Part shown: piece by piece, positions 47,427 to 60,653 of the stretch
Layout of the letters: every line of letters starts with the position of its first letter
How positions within the stretch are numbered: the stretch's first letter is position 1
Source of the DNA: Candidatus Saccharimonadota bacterium
GTDB lineage: Bacteria > Patescibacteriota > Saccharimonadia > Saccharimonadales > Saccharimonadaceae
Length of the DNA: 64,000 bases
Assembly (NCBI GenBank): GCA_026395405.1
Contig: JAPLYU010000001.1
Location: forward strand, 62,001-126,000
Direction of reading: 5' to 3'
Position numbers and translations under genes: made by a program
Notes under the pieces: generated by a model
Seen by the model: the letters and a program-made list of their open reading frames with translations, nothing else
The model's database searches: none
Told to the model about the DNA's origin: nothing

Positions 47427-48443
47427 CTATCTTCGTCTTCGGTAACTATGGGATTTGTTGACTACATAGCGGTTATAACGTTTGATTCCGAAGATAAGGG
47501 CAATTATTACACCAATCAGGACTACGATGATTACCAATATCAATCGCCACGGGATAACCCAGAATGTCAAAACTTGGGTTAATGTCTGATTTTTTGCACC
47601 ATAAGTAAGTTTTAATGTTGCCGTATATTTTCCAAATAGCCATTTGTTGCCTAATTGTCCTTCGTTTAAGACCTGACTGAATTTACGGATACTGTGGGGC
47701 AAGACAAAACCCGGAGGCTGATTTACATTTACGTCAGCGACTTTTTTACCAAACATATCATTTATTGATATCACGCCAGCTGGTTGCTCAAATACATTAC
47801 CATTGTTTTGCAGTCTGACATCAAAGTTTATTGGTGTTTGTTCGAATAACCAACTCGACTTGCTAGTGCCGGGGACTGTAGCCGTATAGCTTGCAACCGT
47901 TAGGTTTTCTTTGGCATCACCGTTGACTCTGATGAATATTAATGCCCCCAGGCTTGGAGTCAACGCTACTCCGGTTCCCTTGAGTTCCGGTGCAGTAGCA
48001 GTAAATCGGATAACTCCGTAATAACCACCAGGCGATGCGTTGGCTGGCACATGAATGGTTATTGGCAGAGTCTTTATCTGTTTTGAATTCAAAGTAAGCT
48101 GCGCCGGTGGAGCTATCCAATTAATAATTGAATATGGGCCAGGCGTAGTGTTATCGATGTTAACTTTTGGAAGCCCCTGTTCGCCGGACGCACCGAAATC
48201 GTCGACTTGACCGGTGACTACTTGCGGAACCAATGATATATTACGCAGGTTAATCTGAGCAGAGACAGTTTGTCCAGGGTCGGCCTTTAGGACTAGTACT
48301 GGAGGTGCGATTTCTAGGGCAGATCCGCTTCCAGGAAGTGATTTCGTTGTCTGCGCAGCTACAATCGGACCAGTTGCAAACAAAATGGCAGCAAAAATAG
48401 CCAGCCCAATTGTTGTCATAGCGTATATGGTGTATTTTTTCAT
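47427..48443 (-). CDS. DUF916/WxL-interacting-like membrane protein
   Basis: 338 residues. Signal peptide (about 1-30), two Ig-like regions (about 45-150 with LVLKADPGQTVSAQINLRN and THVPANASPGGYYGVIRF-type strand; 160-275 with FDVRLQNNGN) and a C-terminal membrane helix (about 293-317) followed by a basic cytoplasmic tail RYNRYVVNKSHSYRRRR. This is the layout of DUF916 proteins that hold WxL surface proteins in Gram-positive bacteria. It is followed upstream by secreted proteins that end in a shared C-terminal domain, the arrangement seen in WxL loci. Confidence 0.75.
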   Translation of the reverse strand: MKKYTIYAMTTIGLAIFAAILFATGPIVAAQTTKSLPGSGSALEIAPPVLVLKADPGQTVSAQINLRNISLVPQVVTGQVDDFGASGEQGLPKVNIDNTTPGPYSIINWIAPPAQLTLNSKQIKTLPITIHVPANASPGGYYGVIRFTATAPELKGTGVALTPSLGALIFIRVNGDAKENLTVASYTATVPGTSKSSWLFEQTPINFDVRLQNNGNVFEQPAGVISINDMFGKKVADVNVNQPPGFVLPHSIRKFSQVLNEGQLGNKWLFGKYTATLKLTYGAKNQTLTQVLTFWVIPWRLILVIIVVLIGVIIALIFGIKRYNRYVVNKSHSYRRRR

Positions 48444-48446
48444 ATT

Positions 48447-49571
48447 TTAAAACGTCGGCGTACAAATGTAGGTTAGTGTTGTCGTGTATGAACCGGCAGG
48501 CTGACTACCTGGTACGTTAACTATATAAGACACGGTATAGATTTGAGCATCGGTACCACCGGCTCCACCGCTTGCACTGTTAGCGATAGGGTCACCAGTT
48601 AAAAACTTAAAACTATCGACGGTATTGTAGCCAGCCAAAGCTTGACCCTTAAGGTTTGTCCCGTTGGCAGCAGGAGCAACTTCTGCACCTACAACCGGGT
48701 TAGACACACCAAGTGTATTTAACCTCAGGTTTAATCCAAACTGACTGACACCGTGTTTGCTGACGTCGATTGCACCCATTGCCGTAATTGGGTTGGTCCC
48801 GTTGGTCATAGTCGATCCGTTGGCGCTAATCGAATATCCCGCACCGGCATTGGTTGATGCCGCTAGTTGTGACGATGCCGTAGCGGTTACAGCCGGTGAG
48901 AATTGCGTGCTAAACGCGACCGCACTGACGGTTGCAGTACTACAATCTGGAACACCAGAAGTCCCGTCTACGGTAATTGTTGCACCAGCGCAAAAGACTA
49001 GCGATTCGGGCATAGTCCCGGTAAGGACGATTTGTAACGCCGTTGCTGCGGCAACAGTACCAGTGTCAGTTACTGTGCCTCCTAATGTAGCCAATGTATA
49101 GGTCGATATGCGGACATAGAATGTTTGTGCTGTGATGGTAGGGTTGGTTACTCCGGCTAAGGTGTAGTCAACCACTTGCGGTCCCGTAACAGACGCCGGT
49201 ACTCTGGTAATATATGGCTGACCGTTGACATGGGCAGCATCTATCGTAAATCCGGTCGCACCGTTTTGGGCTGATAAAGTCGCAGTTGCGGTGTTTAAAC
49301 CGGTCGGAGTAACACATGCTCCACCAGCAGTCGTACAATACAAAAACTGAATCGAGCCGACATTGCCAGTCGTAGGGATTGTAAATGCGAAATGATGGTT
49401 TACAGAACCACCAATTTTTGAACCTTCATCGGTTGCACCTTTTTGTAAAGTCAAAGTTCGTGGTTGAAGCGGTGCTGCATATGACATCTGGCTTTGCAAT
49501 ACTGGTATAACAGTAGCGCCAAACAAAAATACCGCTACCAGTGCTATTCTTCGAATTTTTATTTTACCCAT
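48447..49571 (-). CDS. Secreted protein, paralogue of the 49677-50813 product
   Basis: 374 residues, signal peptide 1-32 (ends MSYAAP). It is closely similar along its length to the next protein upstream: RTLTLQKGATDEGSKIGG, HHFAFTIPTTGNVGSIQFLY, YCTTAGGACVTPTGLNTATAT, MPESLVFCAGATITV, and the end IYTVSYIVNVPGSQPAGSYT, ending in YICTPTF. Predicted to be all-beta with two or more disulfides. It starts within 65 bases of a promoter whose -35 lies in a hairpin arm. The C-terminal domain could be the part recognised by the DUF916-like neighbour, four bases downstream. Confidence 0.8.
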   Translation of the reverse strand: MGKIKIRRIALVAVFLFGATVIPVLQSQMSYAAPLQPRTLTLQKGATDEGSKIGGSVNHHFAFTIPTTGNVGSIQFLYCTTAGGACVTPTGLNTATATLSAQNGATGFTIDAAHVNGQPYITRVPASVTGPQVVDYTLAGVTNPTITAQTFYVRISTYTLATLGGTVTDTGTVAAATALQIVLTGTMPESLVFCAGATITVDGTSGVPDCSTATVSAVAFSTQFSPAVTATASSQLAASTNAGAGYSISANGSTMTNGTNPITAMGAIDVSKHGVSQFGLNLRLNTLGVSNPVVGAEVAPAANGTNLKGQALAGYNTVDSFKFLTGDPIANSASGGAGGTDAQIYTVSYIVNVPGSQPAGSYTTTLTYICTPTF

Positions 49572-49619
49572 TATTAGCGTTAGCCCTCACTCTCGTTAAG
49601 GGAATTGTAACATAAGCAA

Positions 49620-49656
49620 TTAATAACCGTCAACAACATTTTTTGACGGTTATTAA
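49620..49656. terminator. 14-bp hairpin that overlaps the next promoter
   Basis: TTAATAACCGTCAA (49620-49633) and TTGACGGTTATTAA (49643-49656) form a perfect stem with a nine-base loop, after the stop of the 49677-50813 gene. On the minus strand the TTGACG of one arm is correctly spaced (17-18 bases) from TACAAT to serve as -35 for the gene at 48447-49571. Confidence 0.55.
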
Positions 49657-49676
49657 TATTTATTACGAATTCTGGT

Positions 49677-50813
49677 TTAGAAAGTTGGAGTACAAATGTA
49701 AGTTAGGGTTGTTGTGTAAGTACCGGCAGGCTGGCTACCAGGGACGTTCACGATGTACGATACCCGGAAGATTTGAGCGTCGGTTCCACCGGCACCACCA
49801 CCATAGCTATCAGCAACTATGTCACCAGTCAGATAACTAAAATGATCGACGGTGTTGTAGTTTGCATGTGCCTGGCCTCGATAGTTGGTACCGTTTTCTG
49901 CTGGGGCAACTTCAAGCCCTACTGGAACCGTAGATGTTAGAACCGTGTTCAACTTAAGGTTCATGCCGAACTGGCTGGCGCCATGTGCACCAAGTGATGC
50001 CGTACTACCTAACCCAGTGATAGTGTTAAGACCTGAGGTTAGCGTCGGTCCATTAACAGTAATTGCATAACCCGCCCCGGCATTGGTTGATGCGGCCATT
50101 TCCGAAAAGGCAGTAGCAGTGTCGGTTGGAGAAAACAATTGATTAAAGGCGACATCACCAATCGTTGCAGTTGCGCAGTCTGGTAACCCAGATACCCCAT
50201 TTACGCCAACTGTACCACCTGCACAAAAGACTAGTGATTCTGGCATTGTCCCGGATAGGTTGATTTGGGTTGCAGTACTAGCGGCAACAGTACCAGCGTC
50301 AATCGCTGTACCAGAGGTGTCGATCGAGGTATAGGTCGATATGCGAACGTAGAAAGTTTGATTGGTAGTGGTAGGGTTTGTCACACCTGACAACTCATAT
50401 GTAACCGCCTGAGTAGCACCGACTGGCGCTGCGACCCGTGTAATATACGGGTTACCGTTAAGATGAGTAGCGTCCATCGAAAATCCAGTAGCGCCGGTTT
50501 GATCAGTCAAGGTAGCAGTCGTTGTATCTAGTCCAGTAGGGGTCACGCAAGCAGTGGCCGCCAAGGTACAATATTCAAATTTAATCGATCCAACAGTTGT
50601 ATTGCTGTGAATTGTGAAAGCAAACTGGTGTTTTACAACGCCTCCGGGTTTTGAGCCACCATCAGATGCTCCAGCAACCAGAGTTAAAACTCGGGGAGCG
50701 ATTTGAATAGGTGCGGCATAAGCCGTCATCGGCCATACCGTCTGTAATACTAAAATTCCGGCGATACTAATAACGCCTAATACTCTTGCGACTGTTTTTT
50801 GGTGGACTTTCAT
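49677..50813 (-). CDS. Secreted protein, paralogue of the 48447-49571 product
   Basis: 378 residues, signal peptide 1-33 (ends MTAYAAP). Same plan as its paralogue: PRVLTLVAGASDGGSKPGG, KHQFAFTIHSNTTVGSIKFE, ACVTPTGLDTTTATL, MPESLVFCAGGTVGV, and IFRVSYIVNVPGSQPAGTYT, ending YICTPTF. This tandem pair suggests a duplication that has been kept, possibly for antigenic or binding variety. It has a consensus-like promoter (TTGACA, 17, TATATT) about 40 bases upstream. Confidence 0.8.
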   Translation of the reverse strand: MKVHQKTVARVLGVISIAGILVLQTVWPMTAYAAPIQIAPRVLTLVAGASDGGSKPGGVVKHQFAFTIHSNTTVGSIKFEYCTLAATACVTPTGLDTTTATLTDQTGATGFSMDATHLNGNPYITRVAAPVGATQAVTYELSGVTNPTTTNQTFYVRISTYTSIDTSGTAIDAGTVAASTATQINLSGTMPESLVFCAGGTVGVNGVSGLPDCATATIGDVAFNQLFSPTDTATAFSEMAASTNAGAGYAITVNGPTLTSGLNTITGLGSTASLGAHGASQFGMNLKLNTVLTSTVPVGLEVAPAENGTNYRGQAHANYNTVDHFSYLTGDIVADSYGGGAGGTDAQIFRVSYIVNVPGSQPAGTYTTTLTYICTPTF

Positions 50814-50855
50814 GTTTTTGTTTTCTCAATCTTTTAAAATTGTGTTGTTAAATTG

Positions 50856-50884
50856 AATATAGCACTAGCGTAATAAGCTGTCAA
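50856..50884 (-). promoter_or_regulatory. Promoter of the 49677-50813 gene
   Basis: On the minus strand TTGACA (50884-50879), a 17-base spacer and TATATT (50861-50856), giving a leader of about 35-40 bases. Confidence 0.75.
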
Positions 50885-50929
50885 CTATTTTTATATGATA
50901 TATGATATAAGTTATCCACAGGGGCGAGG

Positions 50930-51667
50930 TCAGTATGTACCGGTTACGACGATGGTTTGGCTAGTCGTGTATGCTCCACCAGGGGTCAATCCAGCTACAT
51001 TAACCATGTAGGTGATGGTGTAATTTGTCAGACCCGAGCTTTTTGGGGCATTGGCAATTGTCTCACCACTGACGTAGCGATATTGGTTAGTCGTATTATA
51101 GTTGGTGGCAGCTGTTCCATAGCCAAACTGTCCATTATCTGGGTTAGCTCCGACCGAAACCGGTGTGGTATTAGCCACTAAATTAATTCCGAACTGCTCA
51201 GTTCCTTTGTGGGACGAATCATTTGCCGACATGGCTGTAATTGTATGAGCGCCATACGACGGTGGATTACCATAAATCATGGCCACGTATCCAAAGCTGG
51301 TGTAATTTAAAATCGAAAAGGTTGCGGTTGTAAATGTAGGATTACTGGGGCTGAAACTGCCGAAATCAATACTGCCGCTGGTGATAGCGAAAGACAGAGC
51401 CGGGTCAGGGGTTGTCTGAGACCCAGTGTTAATCTGGTAACCGTTGCTGGCGGTATTGCCAACGGCTAAATCGCCAATCGAAGCAGCCGCCTGGTAGTGC
51501 GCCGAAGTTCCTTGGCTAACGTCACCAACGCCGAGGGCGCTTTCATCAATATGATAATGAGCAGACTGAAGGGTTTCGGCGTAAGTTTTTGTTGCAACCA
51601 AAGATACCATAAACAGCATAATAATAAACAGGCTTACCCACCAGCTTAACCTTAACCTCTTTGGCAT
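50930..51667 (-). CDS. Secreted protein sharing the C-terminal domain of the two paralogues
   Basis: 245 residues. Signal peptide 1-30 (ends TYAET). N-terminal part HYHIDESALGVGD...YQAAASIGDLAVG is a short motif often found at the start of such exported proteins. The last 110 residues (TEQFGINLVANT, ATNYNTTNQYRYVSGETIA, TITYMVNVAGLTPGGAYTT) align in order with the C-terminal domain of the two paralogues (SQFGLNLRLNT, YNTVDSFKFLTGD, YTVSYIVNVPGSQPAGSYTT). So three consecutive genes encode one C-terminal module with different heads. Confidence 0.8.
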   Translation of the reverse strand: MPKRLRLSWWVSLFIIMLFMVSLVATKTYAETLQSAHYHIDESALGVGDVSQGTSAHYQAAASIGDLAVGNTASNGYQINTGSQTTPDPALSFAITSGSIDFGSFSPSNPTFTTATFSILNYTSFGYVAMIYGNPPSYGAHTITAMSANDSSHKGTEQFGINLVANTTPVSVGANPDNGQFGYGTAATNYNTTNQYRYVSGETIANAPKSSGLTNYTITYMVNVAGLTPGGAYTTSQTIVVTGTY

Positions 51668-51771: not shown

Positions 51772-52818
51772 ATGGATAAAGACACGGATCAAAAACCAAC
51801 AGACAATCCGAATGAACCGCCAGCTCCCGAAGTTCTGCGGTCTCAATTCGACGATCCGTCAAAAGCAGCGGCAACACCCGAACAGGGCGCCGTTCCAGCT
51901 GCAAAACCAAAACCGCGACATAATATATATAGACCCAGCCACAAAGCCACTTTCATTGGATTGGGCGTAGTAGCAGTAATTTTGCTGATTAATGCCGCAA
52001 TAATAATTGTTCTGATGAATATTCAAAGTAAAAACAATTCCGAAGTCAGTATCGGTGGTGTAAAAATCAGTCCAGAGGTCCTAGAAACGCTCGGCGTCAG
52101 TCGAAATACAGTCGGCAAGACTGGGTCCGAACTGGTTGTTAATCCGGATGCGAAGTTCACGGGTAATATAACAGTGGGCGGGAATATACAAATTGCAGGA
52201 AAACTTGAAATGAACAGCGGTATTTTAGCCAGTGAGGCAACTTTTACAAAACTTTCAGCAGGTGATACTTCGCTTTCAAAATTAAATGTTAACGGCGACG
52301 CAACTATCAGCGGTCTAGTTTTGCGTAATAATCTATCTGTTGCTGGCTCAACTACTTTGCAAGGGCCGGTGGTAGTCAGTTCACTTATGACAGTCAGCAA
52401 CAATATGAACGTAGCGGGTAATTTGGCTGTCGGCGGAGTCTTGTCGGTCAGGAGTTTTGAGGCCAGCAGCTTGACATCAGATACGACACTGACAATCGGC
52501 GGGCATATAATTACTCGTGGCTCGAGCCCCGGTGTTTCAAAGGGGAGTGGTCTGAATGCGGTTGATACGGTCTCAATCAGCGGAAGTGATGCAGCCGGGA
52601 CGGTTAATGTCAATATAGGGGCCGGAGGCCGTAGTGGTACCGTGGCCAACATCAGCTTTGTACAACAATACGCTAACACCCCGCACGTAATAATTACGGC
52701 AATCGGTAGCGGGGTAACAGACGCCTATATTGCAAGCCGAACTTCCACAGGTTTTAGTATTGGAGTTGGTTCAATCGCGGTTGGTGGCCACTCATTTGAC
52801 TATATTATTATGCAATAG
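51772..52818 (+). CDS. Membrane-anchored fibre-like protein
   Basis: 348 residues. A disordered acidic/Pro-rich cytoplasmic segment (1-60), one membrane helix (about 62-84), then about 160 residues of short repeated beta strands (ITVGGNIQIAGKLEMNSG, NLSVAGSTTLQGPVVV, NMNVAGNLAVGGVLS) typical of trimeric fibre shafts, and a C-terminal knob (about 265-348, SGTVANISFVQQYANTPHVI onwards) of the tail-fibre/H-type type. Topology would place the knob outside the cell. Probably a surface adhesin. Confidence 0.78.
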   Translation: MDKDTDQKPTDNPNEPPAPEVLRSQFDDPSKAAATPEQGAVPAAKPKPRHNIYRPSHKATFIGLGVVAVILLINAAIIIVLMNIQSKNNSEVSIGGVKISPEVLETLGVSRNTVGKTGSELVVNPDAKFTGNITVGGNIQIAGKLEMNSGILASEATFTKLSAGDTSLSKLNVNGDATISGLVLRNNLSVAGSTTLQGPVVVSSLMTVSNNMNVAGNLAVGGVLSVRSFEASSLTSDTTLTIGGHIITRGSSPGVSKGSGLNAVDTVSISGSDAAGTVNVNIGAGGRSGTVANISFVQQYANTPHVIITAIGSGVTDAYIASRTSTGFSIGVGSIAVGGHSFDYIIMQ

Positions 52819-52820
52819 CA

Positions 52821-53084
52821 TTAAATGTTGACGAAAAGCATTACTTCGTTGTCGCGGACAGTGACAATACCATTGCTGACATTGAAAACTATCGGTTCGG
52901 ATGAAGTTTCAATAATAATTTCACCGGGGCTGAGGATAGAAAAAAAGTCAGCGTGTGCAGGCAGAATATCGAATTTTCCGACTCTATTAGTCGCTGTTAC
53001 GGCCTCGGCGTCACCTTCGTAATATACATTGAAAGGGGCGCGGGCGATGACCTTCAGTTTTTCATTAGTTTGCGGTAGTGCCAT
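52821..53084 (-). CDS. F1 epsilon-like subunit, N-terminal domain only
   Basis: 87 residues, compared with 130-140 in usual AtpC. The beta-sandwich half is recognisable (LKVIARAPFNVYYEGDAEAVTATNRVGKFDILPAHADFF, ILSPGEIII and NGIVTVRDNEVMLFV). The C-terminal helical hairpin, which inhibits ATP hydrolysis in many enzymes, is missing. It starts two bases after beta on the same strand and is the last gene of the operon. It should still link gamma to the membrane rotor but cannot act as a brake. Confidence 0.85.
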   Translation of the reverse strand: MALPQTNEKLKVIARAPFNVYYEGDAEAVTATNRVGKFDILPAHADFFSILSPGEIIIETSSEPIVFNVSNGIVTVRDNEVMLFVNI

Positions 53085-53086
53085 GA

Positions 53087-55288
<2,202 letters not shown>

Positions 55289-55302
<14 letters not shown>

Positions 55303-56791
55303 CTTTTTTCTCCTTCGTCTTACCTTCGGGATTTTCTGCGGGTTCAGGTTTTTCTTCCTTTGGTTTTTCGACCTCTATCTTTTTAGAGAATTTTTTAAGC
55401 AATTCAGCCTCGATTGTATCGAAATCCTTTTCTTCTTTGACTTTTTGGCCGACTTGCTTGACCTCTTTTTTCAGTCCTGGTACATCTATGGAATCTCCAC
55501 CATCACTTAAAAGCACAGTTTCTAGCATTAATTGTTGTTCGGTCAAAGTATGCCGCTCCTCAGGCGGTTGCGAAAGAACTTCGTAAATTGATTTTCCAAT
55601 ATTCAAGTCAGTTGTTGTTTCTTTGGATAATTGTGTACTAAAGTGTGAAAATTCCTCAGCCTGGTGATAACTAGCTAATTTTTTAAACAGCGTAGCCGAT
55701 AACTTTTTCTGGCGGACAGTTTGGGCCTGGCTACCCACGCGCGAGACTGACAAACCGGCATTGACCGCTGGCCGGATACCTTGGCGGAAAACTTTCAAAT
55801 CAAAGATGATTTGCCCATCGGTAATCGACATAATATTGGTCGAAAGATAGGCTGTAATATCGTCATTTGGCGTCAAAACCACCGGTAGGGAGGTCAAAGT
55901 TTTGCCGTTTGATAATAATTTTCCAGCTCGTTCCAATAAACTGGAGTGAGCGTAAAACATGTCGCCTGGATACGAATCGCGCCCAGGGTCAACTTCCTGC
56001 AATAGTGATAGTTGCCGATAAGCTTCGGCGTGGCTGGTCAAATCGTCGTAAATCACAATTACATCTTCGCCCTGGTTCCATAAATATTCTGCCATAGCGC
56101 AGGCGGCATAGGGCGCCAGGTAAGATTGCGATAAAGAATCAAATATGTCGGCCAAAACCACGATTGTATTTTCCATGGCGCCAGATGTCTGCAATTCGTT
56201 CAATAAATGTTCAATATCAACCTTACGTTTGCCAATCAGGACGTAAACCACAATCCGGTTACTGCCTTGTTGGTTGGCACTCAGTTGACCCAGAAAAGTA
56301 CTTTTACCTGATTTGCTGTCACCCAGCATTGCGATACGCTGGCCTAATACGATTGGGAAAAAGCTGTCGACTGCCGTCACGCCACTAGCTAGCTGTGTAT
56401 CCAGCATGCTACGGTCCATAATGCCAGGAGCTGGATTGAATATGCCAGACATAGCCGTGGCCCTAATAGCGCTACCACCGTCCAACGGTATTCCCATTGG
56501 CGAAACAACGCGACCGACTAAATCTTTTCCGACGGGCACGCTTAACATGTCTTTTTCTACTACAGCCAAAGTACCGATTGCCAATTTTTCCGAATCAATA
56601 TTGAATAAAATTACTCTATCGCCATAGGCTTCACGAACTATACCGTGCTGGCCGTCGGCAAATAGAATTTCGGCACCCAGACAAACACCCTCCAGACCCT
56701 TAACCTCTACTATAAAACTGTTGACAGCAACAACCTCGCCGGTCAGGTTGTCGGCTTCAACTAGTTTTTGAAAGGTCGGGTTGTCAAACAC
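55289..56791 (-). CDS. F1 alpha-like subunit, divergent
   Basis: 500 residues when started at GTG 56791, which follows AGAGGT and gives FDNPTFQKLVEADNLTGEVV, the normal start of alpha. Longer frames would run into delta. P-loop GDSKSGKS at 157-164 (usual GDRQTGKT), VGRVVSPMGIPLDGG, and the arginine-finger region SVSRVGSQAQTVRQKK are present. A charged Lys/Glu/Pro tail (about 455-500) is unusual. Overlaps delta by eight bases. Catalytic-interface arginine is retained, so the hexamer is probably functional. Confidence 0.9.
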
Positions 56792-57269
56792 GGCGTAATA
56801 CCTCTGGGAAGATTCTGCGGTTTTCCAGTATTTTCCGCTTGAATGACCAGTCAAAGACATGGCTGCCGTATTGCACGACCATTCCACCCAACAGACTAGT
56901 ATTGAACCTAAAAGAAACCAAAATATCTGGTGCAATGTTGGCTCGGCACCAATTGACTAATGCAGTTTTCAAACTACTGGTGGGTAAAGCTGCCAAAGTA
57001 ATTGTTATCGTTGGGGAATTGGACACGTATTGCTCTAATGTTTTAATCAGTAAATCCAGACTTTCGGCGCTGATTTGCTGATTGGCTTTCCAGTCGCGTA
57101 ACAGTTCAAGCGTAGCCGCTGATAATGTAGGCGATGGCGAGCTGACTTTGGCATTGACCTTCGTTTTCACTGATTCATGCGCGTACCAATTGGCATATTC
57201 ATGGACTTCCATTATCAAGGACTTTAAGTCCTGCGATGAAGCTACGCTGCCGGGCAGGCGAAGGCTCAC
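56784..57269 (-). CDS. F1 delta-like subunit (OSCP)
   Basis: 161 residues. The C-terminal signature is clear: FRFNTSLLGGMVVQYGSHVFDWSFKRKI corresponds to VDPSLIGGIRIRIGDKVIDGSV of delta. The N-terminal helical domain is divergent. It should bind the top of the alpha/beta hexamer and the b stalk. Overlaps b by four bases (ATGA). Confidence 0.85.
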   Translation of the reverse strand: MSLRLPGSVASSQDLKSLIMEVHEYANWYAHESVKTKVNAKVSSPSPTLSAATLELLRDWKANQQISAESLDLLIKTLEQYVSNSPTITITLAALPTSSLKTALVNWCRANIAPDILVSFRFNTSLLGGMVVQYGSHVFDWSFKRKILENRRIFPEVLRRV

Positions 57270-57907
57270 TGCGCTATTCCTTTTAAGAGTTCTTCTTTGT
57301 GTTCTTCCAGCATTGCTGTCAGGTAAGCAGTCTGGGTTCCTAGGTCAATATTATGGCCCAGCGTCTCAACCAGGAACGATGCTACGGCGTCAGCCAATTT
57401 TGCATTAGCCAGATTTATCAGAACTTGCTTTTCAGCTGTAACTTCCGCATTCATTGCGGCTTCCAGTTCAGCCCGGCGAGCATCAATTCTAGCCTTAAGG
57501 TCTGCTTGATGCGCATTAATATCCTTTTGGGCATCCTCGATGTTGGCTTCAGTTTGTTTACGCAGTTGTTCTAGGTCTACGCGATATCGCTTCATCTCTT
57601 CACCGACAATTTCTGAACCAAGCTTGCCAAGCCGGCTGTCCAGTTTTGCCGCTGTAGTTTTTAAATCATATTCTAACTCTGCAGCCGAATGGTTGATAAT
57701 AGTCTGGAATTTCACTTCGGACGCCTCCAGCAAATGCTCTTTCACTTCAGCTGGCAGGCGTACTGGCGGCTGGGTGTTTTTATGTGGTTTGTCTTCATCT
57801 TCACGAGGTTTGAAATGGGCATAGGCATGACGAACTGCCGTAGCCGACACCACTCCGATAAGGAAGAATGTCACCAGTAATGTTATTTGTAGAAAGCTTG
57901 CGTACAT
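57266..57907 (-). CDS. F-type b-like stator subunit
   Basis: 213 residues, longer than usual AtpF (about 160). One N-terminal membrane helix (about 5-27), then a long, highly charged coiled coil (about 60-195; KARIDARRAELEAAMNAEVT and similar). No conserved Arg in the membrane part was seen. It starts four bases after the c-like gene, and the AAGGATG ribosome site is formed by the last codons of that gene. Confidence 0.82.
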   Translation of the reverse strand: MYASFLQITLLVTFFLIGVVSATAVRHAYAHFKPREDEDKPHKNTQPPVRLPAEVKEHLLEASEVKFQTIINHSAAELEYDLKTTAAKLDSRLGKLGSEIVGEEMKRYRVDLEQLRKQTEANIEDAQKDINAHQADLKARIDARRAELEAAMNAEVTAEKQVLINLANAKLADAVASFLVETLGHNIDLGTQTAYLTAMLEEHKEELLKGIAQ

Positions 57908-57911
57908 TTTA

Positions 57912-58769
57912 TTACATCCTTGTTAACACTAAATAGATTGATATCATGCCAACGGCCAGTATTGCCATAACAAGGGCGGAAAGTTGTATTAAATCTCTGT
58001 AAATTGCCGATTGAGACATTGGATTTCGACCAACTGATATGATGCTGCTGCGGACCATTGCAAAAACAATACTGACGACAACGATGATGGTGATAATAAA
58101 TATCGCAACACTAATGACAATTGGCAAAGTACTAACCGTTTTCCCGGCCAGAGTATTTGCTACATTCTGTATAGCGGCGGGCACAATAGTTTTATCGGGT
58201 TCTTTGAAAAAATATGACACGGCGACCTGCAACGGTATTTGCCCGATAAATACTGTCTTTTTCTTGCCGTCTTTATCGGTGTAGGGTTGTTTGCTGCCGT
58301 TTCTGGTATCCAAGGCACTTTGAGCGATACCGATAACTCGGACGTTTTGATTTGCCTTCATGCCAACACCGTCAATTGGCGAAGCCGTTATTTGATCGCC
58401 ATTAGAAATCGAGCCGTTTATATCTGATACTAACACCTGCAGCACGCCATTCGTTGCCACCTCGGCGGTATTCTTTTGGCCGCTTGTTACGGACATTATT
58501 GAATTACCCGGGTTAACGACCACACCAAGTAAGTTTTCTACATTACCATTGTTAGCCGCTATGACTTCGTCATTAGTATTATTTTTAAGGCTTACGATTG
58601 AACCGATTGTCAGTTCACCTGCAGTTGTATAACTCTGCGAAAATTGTTGGGTTGCATGGACAACTACGGGTATTAATAATGCAAAAATTACGATGCTAAA
58701 AAGAGACAAGATATGCTCAAAGCCGAAATGTCTGATGCGACTCACTTTTATTAGGCCCCTTACCTTCAT
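57912..58769 (-). CDS. Membrane protein in place of subunit c: extracellular domain plus c-like hairpin lacking the carboxylate
   Basis: 285 residues when started at ATG 58769. Membrane/signal helix (about 17-38), an extracellular beta-rich domain (41-212; GSIVSLKN, LLGVVVNPG, GDQITASPIDGVGMKA), helix 214-238, a polar loop with SSIISVGRNPMSQSAIYRD (GRNP at 247-250), helix 258-281. The last 75 residues match the subunit c plan: the polar RNP loop faces the cytoplasm and both ends face out. Where c has Glu/Asp in helix two (ALAEAIA-type), this protein has ALVMAILAV (V267-M268). No other a or c gene is next to the operon. The F1 operon starts here, with an extended -10 upstream. Confidence 0.75.
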   Translation of the reverse strand: MKVRGLIKVSRIRHFGFEHILSLFSIVIFALLIPVVVHATQQFSQSYTTAGELTIGSIVSLKNNTNDEVIAANNGNVENLLGVVVNPGNSIMSVTSGQKNTAEVATNGVLQVLVSDINGSISNGDQITASPIDGVGMKANQNVRVIGIAQSALDTRNGSKQPYTDKDGKKKTVFIGQIPLQVAVSYFFKEPDKTIVPAAIQNVANTLAGKTVSTLPIVISVAIFIITIIVVVSIVFAMVRSSIISVGRNPMSQSAIYRDLIQLSALVMAILAVGMISIYLVLTRM

Positions 58770-58804: not shown

Positions 58805-58850
58805 AATAAACATAAGCGTAGCGAGACAATCAATACTAGATATATGAAAA

Positions 58851-60653
58851 CTATTTTGGCAAATTTTGAAACTGGTTATAACGGATGATTGTTGCTGATT
58901 GATTTTTTTCTTTCACCAACATCGCGTTGCAGTCGCTTGATGTCGGGAAAACTACCATTTGATCAGAGCAAACCTTTAGGGAATTTTTTCCTTCAGCGAA
59001 CAGACTTTGACCAAACATCAATTGATTGGTTTTAATACCCAACAAATCCAAGATGGTCGGCATTATATCGATATGTGAACCTTGGTTCGAATATGTCTTG
59101 CCAGAAGTCTGACCCGGCAATTTGATTACTAGTGGCACTTCTTTTTCGGATACCGATTCGGGGTCGTAATTGATAGTCCCAGCTGAAAATGCCGGTAGTA
59201 CCGGAGTGTGGTCACCATAAACAATTATTAATGAATCATCGTATAAACCTTCAGCCTTTAATTTTGTAAAGAAATTACCTAACTCGCTGTCGGTGTAGTT
59301 AATGTCGTCCAGATAACCTCCAACTTGATCAGGATATTTGCTGGCGTCAACACCCAATTTATCAGTTTGATCATTTGTAGAAAATGGGACGTGGGAAGAC
59401 AGTGTTATAGCATAGCTGAAACTCGGTTTTGGTTGGTCTTTTATGTATTCGGCCGTTTTTGACAGGAAAGTACCATCGTTTAGACCCATGTTTATATCAA
59501 AACCCTTCGGGTAATTATCAGCAGCATAGAATTTTTGATATCCCAGTGATTTTAGAGCAACATTGCGGTTCCAAAAATTACGGTTAAAACCGTGGTAGGC
59601 GTACGCCGAGTAGCCGTTACCGATTAGTGTTTTAGGTAGGCTGTTGAAGTTATCATGTCCAAATCGGACAAAGACCGCCGCATCGTCGAGTGGAAAATAC
59701 GAGGAGTTTGCCACAAAGTCCGTGTCGCTGGTGTGACCAGCTGCAAGCACGAATCTTTCATTTGGAAAGAACTGGGAGGTTTTTGCTAATCTGTTTAGAT
59801 TCGGAGTAATTTCTTTGCCGTCGATTGTCTGGTTAATTACAAATCCACCCAGTGATTCGACCTGTATCATAATAACGTTTTTCCCCTTGGCTGTACCAGT
59901 TAGCGAATTTGTGGTCTGTTTTGGTGTATTATTTTTAACCCAATCGGCCAAAGCCTTTTTCTGTTCCGATGACAACCTAGTGGTCTCTTCTTGAACAAAT
60001 CTGGAAACATCAATAATATGAGCTCCTAAAACACCATAATAATTTGCGGTCGAAGTGGTGTCATAAGCCCTGTCCACTATTTGAGTAAAATAATTAATTC
60101 CACCAATGCTTATGAAAATTCCACAGAAACTAATTAAAATTAAAACAACAAAAGTCCAAACGGTTTTTATATTTGTTTTTTTAACATGGTACTTGGTTTT
60201 TAATCGGACAAATAATTTGTCAATTTTTTTATGGAATATTAAAACGACGATAACGTCTACAAAATACAAGATTAGCCACCACTGGAGTAGGGCTATAATA
60301 GCTGGACCGATAGACTCTGTTTGGCCCAAAGAACTAATCAGCCCTGCGGTTGGAAGTGCTGAAAAATAAGAATAATAAACAGTATCAACAACCAAAAGAA
60401 TTGAAAAGAGAAGGGATACCGTAATAGCTGTTTTGTTTTTATGTCTTTTTACAAAAAAAATGGGCAAAAATATCACGGCTGGAAGTAGAAAAATAAACAA
60501 TAGTTCGGATACAGACCACCTGTCTTTATGCAAAACAGAGGAGCTAAAGAAAAACTGTTTATATCCGGCGGCTAGGGCCAAAAATATAACAATATACTGG
60601 TCACTGATAAATGACAAGGTCTGTCGCCAGACCTTTTTGTGGGATTGACTCAT
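58851..60653 (-). CDS. LtaS-like membrane phosphoglycerol transferase (sulfatase fold)
   Basis: 600 residues. Five membrane helices (about 18-205), then an extracellular sulfatase-type domain. Metal and catalytic residues: E266 (IQVESLGG), T308 nucleophile in AAGHTSDTDF (counterpart of GQGKTSDSE in LtaS), D481 and H482 (YGDHTP). The family builds polyglycerolphosphate on lipid or modifies glycans with phosphoglycerol. It suggests a teichoic-acid-like surface polymer or scavenging from host lipids. Same strand as, and upstream of, the F1-like operon. Confidence 0.9.
   Translation of the reverse strand: MSQSHKKVWRQTLSFISDQYIVIFLALAAGYKQFFFSSSVLHKDRWSVSELLFIFLLPAVIFLPIFFVKRHKNKTAITVSLLFSILLVVDTVYYSYFSALPTAGLISSLGQTESIGPAIIALLQWWLILYFVDVIVVLIFHKKIDKLFVRLKTKYHVKKTNIKTVWTFVVLILISFCGIFISIGGINYFTQIVDRAYDTTSTANYYGVLGAHIIDVSRFVQEETTRLSSEQKKALADWVKNNTPKQTTNSLTGTAKGKNVIMIQVESLGGFVINQTIDGKEITPNLNRLAKTSQFFPNERFVLAAGHTSDTDFVANSSYFPLDDAAVFVRFGHDNFNSLPKTLIGNGYSAYAYHGFNRNFWNRNVALKSLGYQKFYAADNYPKGFDINMGLNDGTFLSKTAEYIKDQPKPSFSYAITLSSHVPFSTNDQTDKLGVDASKYPDQVGGYLDDINYTDSELGNFFTKLKAEGLYDDSLIIVYGDHTPVLPAFSAGTINYDPESVSEKEVPLVIKLPGQTSGKTYSNQGSHIDIMPTILDLLGIKTNQLMFGQSLFAEGKNSLKVCSDQMVVFPTSSDCNAMLVKEKNQSATIIRYNQFQNLPK

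Follow-up and report, generated by a model that had tools for sequence, protein, structure and literature searches.

Mycoplasmas provide a precedent for F1-like ATPases that drive surface machinery (PMC12994834, PMC11864180). Among their F1-like X0 ATPases, Type 2 drives gliding, and antibody evasion by MIB-MIP requires Type 3 (PMC3369863, PMC11864180, PMC12994834). Protein 5 of these systems carries a signal peptide, a large outer part and two C-terminal TM helices, and is encoded beside the F1-like genes; homology of this protein to the c subunit of ATP synthase has not been found or reported (PMC3369863, PMC12994834). The 'ATP synthases' of Patescibacteria have been discussed as PMF machines (PMC8080830, PMC10633639, PMC13059738, PMC10656485), and one cultured member of the phylum is able to lose its 'ATP synthase' genes without a growth cost (PMC10633639). 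No earlier account of a patescibacterial form that lacks subunit a and has a converted c was found in the open literature searched, a scope that left out preprints and most subscription journals. The present analysis concerns such a form, encoded in the window, by which we mean the whole stretch of 64,000 nucleotides that was analysed.

An F1 operon with X in the atpE position

The source genome consists of 855 kb in 4 contigs and is 97% complete. X, a c-derived hairpin fused to an extracellular domain, is 285 aa long when read from its ATG (57912–58769, minus strand; an alternative TTG start is possible at 58829), and it is the first of seven minus-strand genes in the order X-b-delta-alpha-gamma-beta-epsilon. 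Compared to the ordinary order atpB-E-F-H-A-G-D-C, X occupies the atpE position directly upstream of the atpF-like b, and atpB is missing from the operon of the window. The b-like subunit (57266–57907) has an N-terminal TM helix and a coiled coil, and was assigned to the peripheral stalk on the basis of its position and family conservation, the Pfam scan being without a match. It is followed on the same strand by a delta/OSCP-like subunit (56784–57269; PF00213, E 2.1e-5), the alpha subunit with its Arg finger kept (55289–56860; PF00006, 4.2e-67; the ORF extends to 56935, the probable start being the ATG near 56860), gamma (54442–55302; PF00231, 1.7e-25), beta with intact catalytic residues (53087–54445; PF00006, 9.9e-65) and an 87 aa epsilon (52821–53084; PF02823, 2.7e-13) which is reduced to the N-terminal beta-sandwich and lacks the C-terminal inhibitory helices. 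PF00137 (c) and PF00119 (a) have zero matches anywhere in the source genome, while the same searches succeed in control genomes, and the alpha/beta pair of the X operon is the only one that the genome has. A gene for an LtaS-like lipoteichoic acid synthase/sulfatase (58851–60653, minus strand) lies directly upstream of X and is not conserved at other X loci.

Conservation of the operon is shown by its distribution. Within the source family, 51 of the 151 genomes have a match to X, or 49 after two with the ectodomain only were dropped, and delta and alpha lie beside X at all 30 loci returned, as they also do in the Saccharibacteria MAGs UBA2018, UBA2951 and UBA2952. In a phylum sample of 380 genomes, full-length X, counted as matches that reach the hairpin, is present in at least 50 genomes from some twenty families. 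Forty larger regions were collected across the phylum, and 33 of these contain X together with the F1 operon; the other seven, in which no F1 adjoins X, are orphans or lie, in several cases, at contig ends. Because the same gene recurs beside F1 genes at 30/30 family loci and in 33/40 phylum regions, X is not a chance gene, and the synteny with F1 genes on which an earlier, sequence-only reading of the locus depended was confirmed. The possibility that the operon is a recent or local acquisition was dropped, as it is phylum-wide and its tree follows taxonomy.

X is usually additional to a normal FoF1, c being found as well in 44 of the 49 X-positive family genomes; outside this family, c is missing from 17 of the 37 X-positive genomes of the phylum. 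PF00119 (a) is absent from 20 of the 21 X-positive, c-negative genomes and present in all six controls. Four X-only genomes are single contigs (G058, G383, G413 and G293), so that the missing a and c are not explained by assembly gaps.

The ATPase residues of the X-type F1 are conserved throughout: all 36 X-type F1s keep the P-loop Lys and Thr of beta, the catalytic Glu (E. coli E181) and the arginine finger of alpha (R376), and it is inferred from this invariance, which is evidence from sequence alone, that ATP hydrolysis should be intact. In trees of concatenated alpha and beta, all X-type F1s form one clade (FastTree 0.998; IQ-TREE UFBoot 100) on a long stem (0.57–0.65), apart from the canonical F1 of the same genomes, and the branches inside this clade follow taxonomy. 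E. coli was the sole outgroup, the exact root is therefore unresolved, and long-branch effects are not excluded for the deepest X branches. The single, ancient origin of the X-type F1 is also backed by the shared fusion, the truncated epsilon and the loss of a. The epsilon subunits of all X-operon relatives have 82–110 aa and no inhibitory C-terminal helices. Gamma, delta and b are retained; of 35 b subunits, 32 have the N-terminal TM helix. At three loci (L117–L119) the b-like subunit has no such helix, and the peripheral stalk is thus not membrane-anchored by b.

A partner surface protein is encoded on the opposite strand (51772–52818, plus strand), adjoining epsilon and facing it. It is single-copy in the source genome and is built from an acidic cytosolic tail, one TM helix, a repetitive, bactofilin- or tail-fibre-like outer beta part and a conserved C-terminal tip. 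The linkage of X to this fibre is shown by the 151 family genomes (Saccharimonadia), where the partner is present in 42 of 49 X-positive versus 4 of 102 X-negative genomes (Fisher p 2.5e-25, uncorrected for shared ancestry); two of the four X-negative, partner-positive genomes have the F1 operon with X cut off at a contig end. In two single-contig genomes the order is b-delta-alpha-gamma-beta-epsilon-X followed directly by a 3090-aa type II membrane protein that shares this tip, and at another locus a 1599-residue version of the fibre overlaps the start of X. The outer domain of X was not detected by HMM in the first set of operon neighbours, but X-type outer domains were found within the fibre proteins of a few genomes, and at one locus (L188) the fibre carries one just before the tip. 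In other classes a different giant protein stands beside X; its cytosolic domain is MerR-like, and a TM helix connects this to a fibre that bears a chaperone domain of the endosialidase type and a K1-lyase C-terminal domain. Such domains belong to phage tail fibres, and fibres of this kind are normally trimers.

Several further observations concern the surface proteins in the vicinity of these operons. X-type ectodomains recur inside surface proteins of 1000–4400 aa in many Patescibacteria of the phylum sample in which no full-length X was matched. At thirteen loci the giant surface proteins beside the X operon start with a cytosolic MerR/excisionase-like DNA-binding domain, so that, oddly, a surface fibre is combined with a DNA-binding tail, and one of these fibres (L113) has a Peptidase_S74 domain. 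FG-GAP (integrin-like beta-propeller) repeat proteins are encoded downstream of another X operon (L187:72-4602), one of them ending in the tip domain of the partner, and in the three loci L117, L118 and L119 the cytosolic tail of the partner has a conserved DALSRTPEDLE-like motif. In the window, a run of secreted proteins lies next to the partner gene (47430–51667, minus strand), which includes one protein that resembles WxL-interacting proteins and has two TM segments (weak PF06030), and three secreted, related proteins that Pfam does not match; two families of this run recur beside X operons in the distant patescibacterial family f85.

The hairpin of X and its relation to subunit c

Protein X starts with a signal peptide (residues 1–39; 58653–58769, minus strand, as are all parts of X), which is supported by the sequence, the alignment and a modelled helix at residues 15–32, and has an AxA-like site between VHA and T (...VVVHA-T). 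This is followed by an extracellular beta domain of about residues 40–190 (58200–58652) that is similar to phage capsid-decoration proteins, and by a c-like transmembrane hairpin at residues 209–285 (57915–58145) with the polar loop G247-R248-N249-P250 (58020–58031). In the full-length AlphaFold2 model (pLDDT 84), the beta domain spans residues 40–190, a short helix residues 198–208, and two long helices, 214–246 and 250–284, meet at GRN(-P). When the hairpin is modelled alone (pLDDT 91), it forms helices 6–40 and 42–76 and has full c length. The signal peptide indicates an outside ectodomain and a cytosolic loop; the predicted topology, with the beta domain and the C-terminus outside and a cytosolic loop, is that of subunit c, and it rests on sequence and model only. 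Two claims of the sequence-only reading therefore held, namely that two hydrophobic C-terminal helices are joined by GRNP, as in the AlphaFold2 model, and that GRNP is cytoplasmic and the ectodomain outside, as the signal peptide indicates.

The outer domain was compared with the PDB by Foldseek, and its fold matches phage decoration/cement proteins and the phi29 gp12 C-terminal domain (best E 1.3e-5) with low TM-scores, making this only a distant fold match. PF23982 was matched in 14 of 30 X members (best E 1e-6), and PHROGs returned nothing useful for X. The loop is the best-conserved part of the protein, with 89% identity versus 48% for the ectodomain among 24 closer relatives.

The hairpin of X is homologous to subunit c of the ATP synthase. 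An HMM built from 73 X hairpins and run against 7172 ORFs ranks canonical c subunits first after X itself, from E 1.1e-10 downward; the first unrelated ORF appears at E 0.01, and most of the canonical c subunits in the set score better than that. When a 63-row alignment of the hairpin was compared with all PDB sequences, 14 matches were obtained up to E 10, and all 14 are subunit c, the best being Chloroflexus c (E 2.3e-4), which aligns ungapped across both helices. The similarity to c profiles, which the sequence-only reading had set beforehand as one of its tests, was thus borne out. In hhalign, the X hairpin and canonical c align with a score of 41.7 and a probability of 95% over 65 ungapped columns, while none of 150 shuffles made separately inside helix 1, the loop and helix 2 scores above 19.0. 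If the loop is left unshuffled, the mean is 32.4 and the highest score 38.2; with the loop masked, the score falls from 41.7 to 13.1 and the signal is lost. These controls indicate that most of the signal comes from the loop and that the helices add to it; the claim of homology accordingly rests on the loop, the helices and the operon position together.

Searches with single sequences do not recover this relationship. Scanning X with Pfam and NCBIfam models did not return any c family, the gathering score of PF00137 was not reached, and PF00137 gave no match for X of the window and E 0.33 for one relative; therefore a phylum-wide profile was required to establish the link. In structural terms, the hairpin model superposes on many c subunits at about 1.6–2.6 A, and Foldseek with the hairpin alone lists c subunits first with non-significant E-values (0.97 and above), a ranking that supports but does not prove kinship, helical hairpins being common. 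Foldseek with the whole X model was dominated by the beta domain and matched no c. The predicted structure, the third point on which the sequence-only reading could have failed, is a c-like hairpin, as a single chain, so that all three points went in favour of that reading.

The loss of the ion site is likewise shown. Canonical Saccharibacteria c reads GRNPEKLSDIRTLMITAIVFADSLAIIG, and in canonical patescibacterial c a D or E, the ion-binding carboxylate, stands 18 residues after the Pro, whereas X has Met268 (57966–57968) preceded by Val267 in this place, as the sequence-only reading had it. Among 73 X relatives the +18 position is L in 35, I in 18, F in 7, V in 6 and T, M, G or A in the few others, and none of the 73 has a D or E between +14 and +34 after the Pro. 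Since the carboxylate is absent throughout, its loss is ancestral to the X family. The GxGxGxG packing motif of c-ring helix 1 is gone from X as well. The loop residues are nearly invariant in the same relatives (R in 72/73, N and P in 73/73). In F-type enzymes the polar loop of c binds gamma-epsilon, and the GRNP loop of X is inferred to couple to gamma/epsilon, for which there are no binding data.

Models for the function of the X operon

The features shown above are the homology of X to c, the conserved operon, the lost ion site, the missing subunit a, ATPase residues that are intact, one ancient clade of F1 and the link with the fibre. On this basis, the reading favoured here, with a probability of roughly 0.62, is that of an ATP-hydrolysing F1 motor in which a c-derived, ion-incompetent X rotor passes force to the cell surface. 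In this view, alpha3-beta3-gamma-epsilon would hydrolyse ATP and thereby turn gamma-epsilon, the X hairpins would be the membrane rotor or rotor anchor that is gripped to gamma-epsilon via the GRNP loop, and delta and b would constitute the stator stalk. In the absence of subunit a and of the carboxylate no ions would be moved, and X with its outside beta domains would be the sole thing turned or strained across the membrane. Because there is no ion path, the work would be mechanical and delivered outside, where the beta domains would probably act on, against or together with the adjacent membrane-anchored tail-fibre-like protein. The proposal that X simply replaces c in a normal pump was dropped, given that subunit a is missing too.

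Ring assembly, rotation and force on surface fibres, which might serve for example host adhesion or movement on the host cell, are inferred. The sequence-only reading had also proposed a ring of X as a rotor turned by ATP hydrolysis, and this part stays an inference: no ring has been predicted or observed, the models being of single chains only, turning has not been shown and the copy number is not established. As helix 1 of X is without GxGxGxG, a tight c-type ring may not form. The weakest point of the rotor model is the stator, since without subunit a nothing has been identified that would hold b, and the model is also without expression data. The orphan X genes in seven of the 40 regions, and the dominance of the loop in the profile similarity to c, likewise count against it. 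A bolder reading, slightly less likely than not, is that Patescibacteria have from their common ancestor an ATP-driven trans-membrane rotary motor: a ring of c-derived subunits, with extracellular domains attached, would rotate a phage-tail-fibre-like surface appendage or put it under tension. The unexplained two-TM Protein 5 of the mycoplasma gliding and MIB-MIP motors is maybe a more degenerate version of this. As a separate observation, three loci of family f85 (L106, L107 and L108) have two different X genes near one F1 operon together with a 4–5 TM protein without a Pfam match, and a heteromeric X rotor or an unrecognised stator part is possible there.

The main rival is a static anchor, which remains possible. 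According to this model, a few X hairpins tie the F1-like ATPase to the membrane and the surface layer without forming a ring, and the ATPase undergoes conformational cycling or regulatory hydrolysis with no full rotation. The missing GxGxGxG in helix 1, the merely inferred ring, the b stalk without a TM helix in one subgroup (L117–L119) and the mycoplasma X0 sector, which has no recognised c ring (PMC12994834), are in its favour. Against it, the conserved loop corresponds to the part of c that binds gamma-epsilon in known F-type enzymes, gamma, delta and b are all retained and would be needless for a mere anchor, and the AlphaFold2 hairpin is as long as a full c.

It is unlikely that F1-X is a secretion or assembly device which energises the export of the large surface proteins encoded nearby, or their assembly outside the cell, rather than moving them once they are assembled. 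Surface-protein genes do cluster beside the X operon, and the ATPase is also related to the FliI/SctN export ATPases, though this kinship is general to F1; however, the partners have the usual signal or TM anchors of Sec substrates, beta and alpha resemble F1 and not FliI, and the operon has no pore protein. Even less probable is a cryptic ion pump, in which X would move ions via another polar site with an unrecognised substitute for a. Part of the X family has Q, E or H at +12 and part has D at +9, but neither is conserved family-wide (+12 is elsewhere F, I, L or K), a mid-membrane acid in helix 2 occurs in 0/73, PF00119 is missing from the X-only genomes (20/21), and there is no conserved multi-TM gene in the operon, the 4–5 TM neighbour being confined to the f85 clade. 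A decaying FoF1 remnant, in which a c gene was accidentally fused to a gene for a surface domain, would fit the fact that a, the carboxylate of c and the C-terminus of epsilon have been lost, but is practically ruled out, as these losses are common to all relatives while the catalytic residues and the loop are near-invariant, and the operon is ancient and stands beside an intact FoF1 in many genomes.

If the force-transmitting rotor model is true, an F1 motor has exchanged ion pumping for mechanical work at the surface, with its own c subunit as the means of conversion, in a phylum that represents a huge group of episymbionts with poorly understood host contact. The model also bears on the puzzle of why non-respiring Patescibacteria keep 'ATP synthase' genes. 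In some genomes, the source genome included, the sole alpha/beta genes belong to a complex unable to make ATP from an ion gradient, and therefore surveys that count alpha plus beta as an ATP synthase miscall these genomes.

Comparison with known systems

The Type 3 F1-like X0 ATPase (MMCAP2_0575-0581, MIB-MIP) is similar to the X operon in that it comprises an extra alpha, beta, gamma and epsilon without a, together with a membrane protein that combines a signal peptide and an outer part with two TM helices at the C-terminus, and in that it is linked to surface proteins and coexists with a normal F1F0 (PMC3369863, PMC12994834). The statement of the sequence-only reading that no protein of this architecture had been described thus held only in part, as the outline was already known for Protein 5, without c homology there. 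The X operon differs from the mycoplasma Types 2 and 3 in having b, delta and a demonstrably c-related hairpin and no 12-TM protein, and it does not fit their seven-gene cluster, which includes a 12-TM protein and a small cytosolic protein and has no b or delta. The alpha and beta of the X operon score 266–388 bits against NF045863, NF045858, NF045934 and NF045936, the cut-offs of which are 520–850, and ordinary F1 models score higher. Being well below the cut-offs of the mycoplasma models and fitting ordinary F1 better, they are likely to have a separate origin. The G1-ATPase of Type 2, which acts in Mycoplasma mobile gliding, is likewise F1-derived and considered to transmit force to an adhesin 'leg' at the surface (PMC11864180, PMC12994834), but it is a dimeric, chain-forming motor with an extra beta domain, and the beta of the X operon matches it at E 2.4e-87, more weakly than ordinary F1 beta (E 2e-120).

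The N-ATPase, an alternate F1F0 (TIGR03305/TIGR03324), is comparable in that it, too, is encoded by an F-type operon that is the second in its genome. N-ATPases have retained a and c and are ion pumps. The X operon has neither a nor c and reaches 422.9 of 752 bits for TIGR03305 and 348.8 of 750.5 for TIGR03324, so that the definition is not met. With subunit c (AtpE, PF00137), X shares the hairpin fold, the topology, the GRNP loop and the place in the operon, and it differs by the lack of the carboxylate and of the GxGxGxG helix, by the added signal peptide and outer domain of about 150 residues, and by scoring below the Pfam cut-off. Phage decoration/cement proteins and the phi29 gp12 C-terminal domain are alike in outer fold, whereas X is tethered to the membrane by its c hairpin. 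To conclude, the X motor may, by analogy, work like the mycoplasma X0 ATPases in a broad sense without being a member of that group, and if the model is correct, its c-related hairpin would open a way, by homology, to the still unexplained X0 sector of the motors that mycoplasmas use for gliding and antibody evasion.
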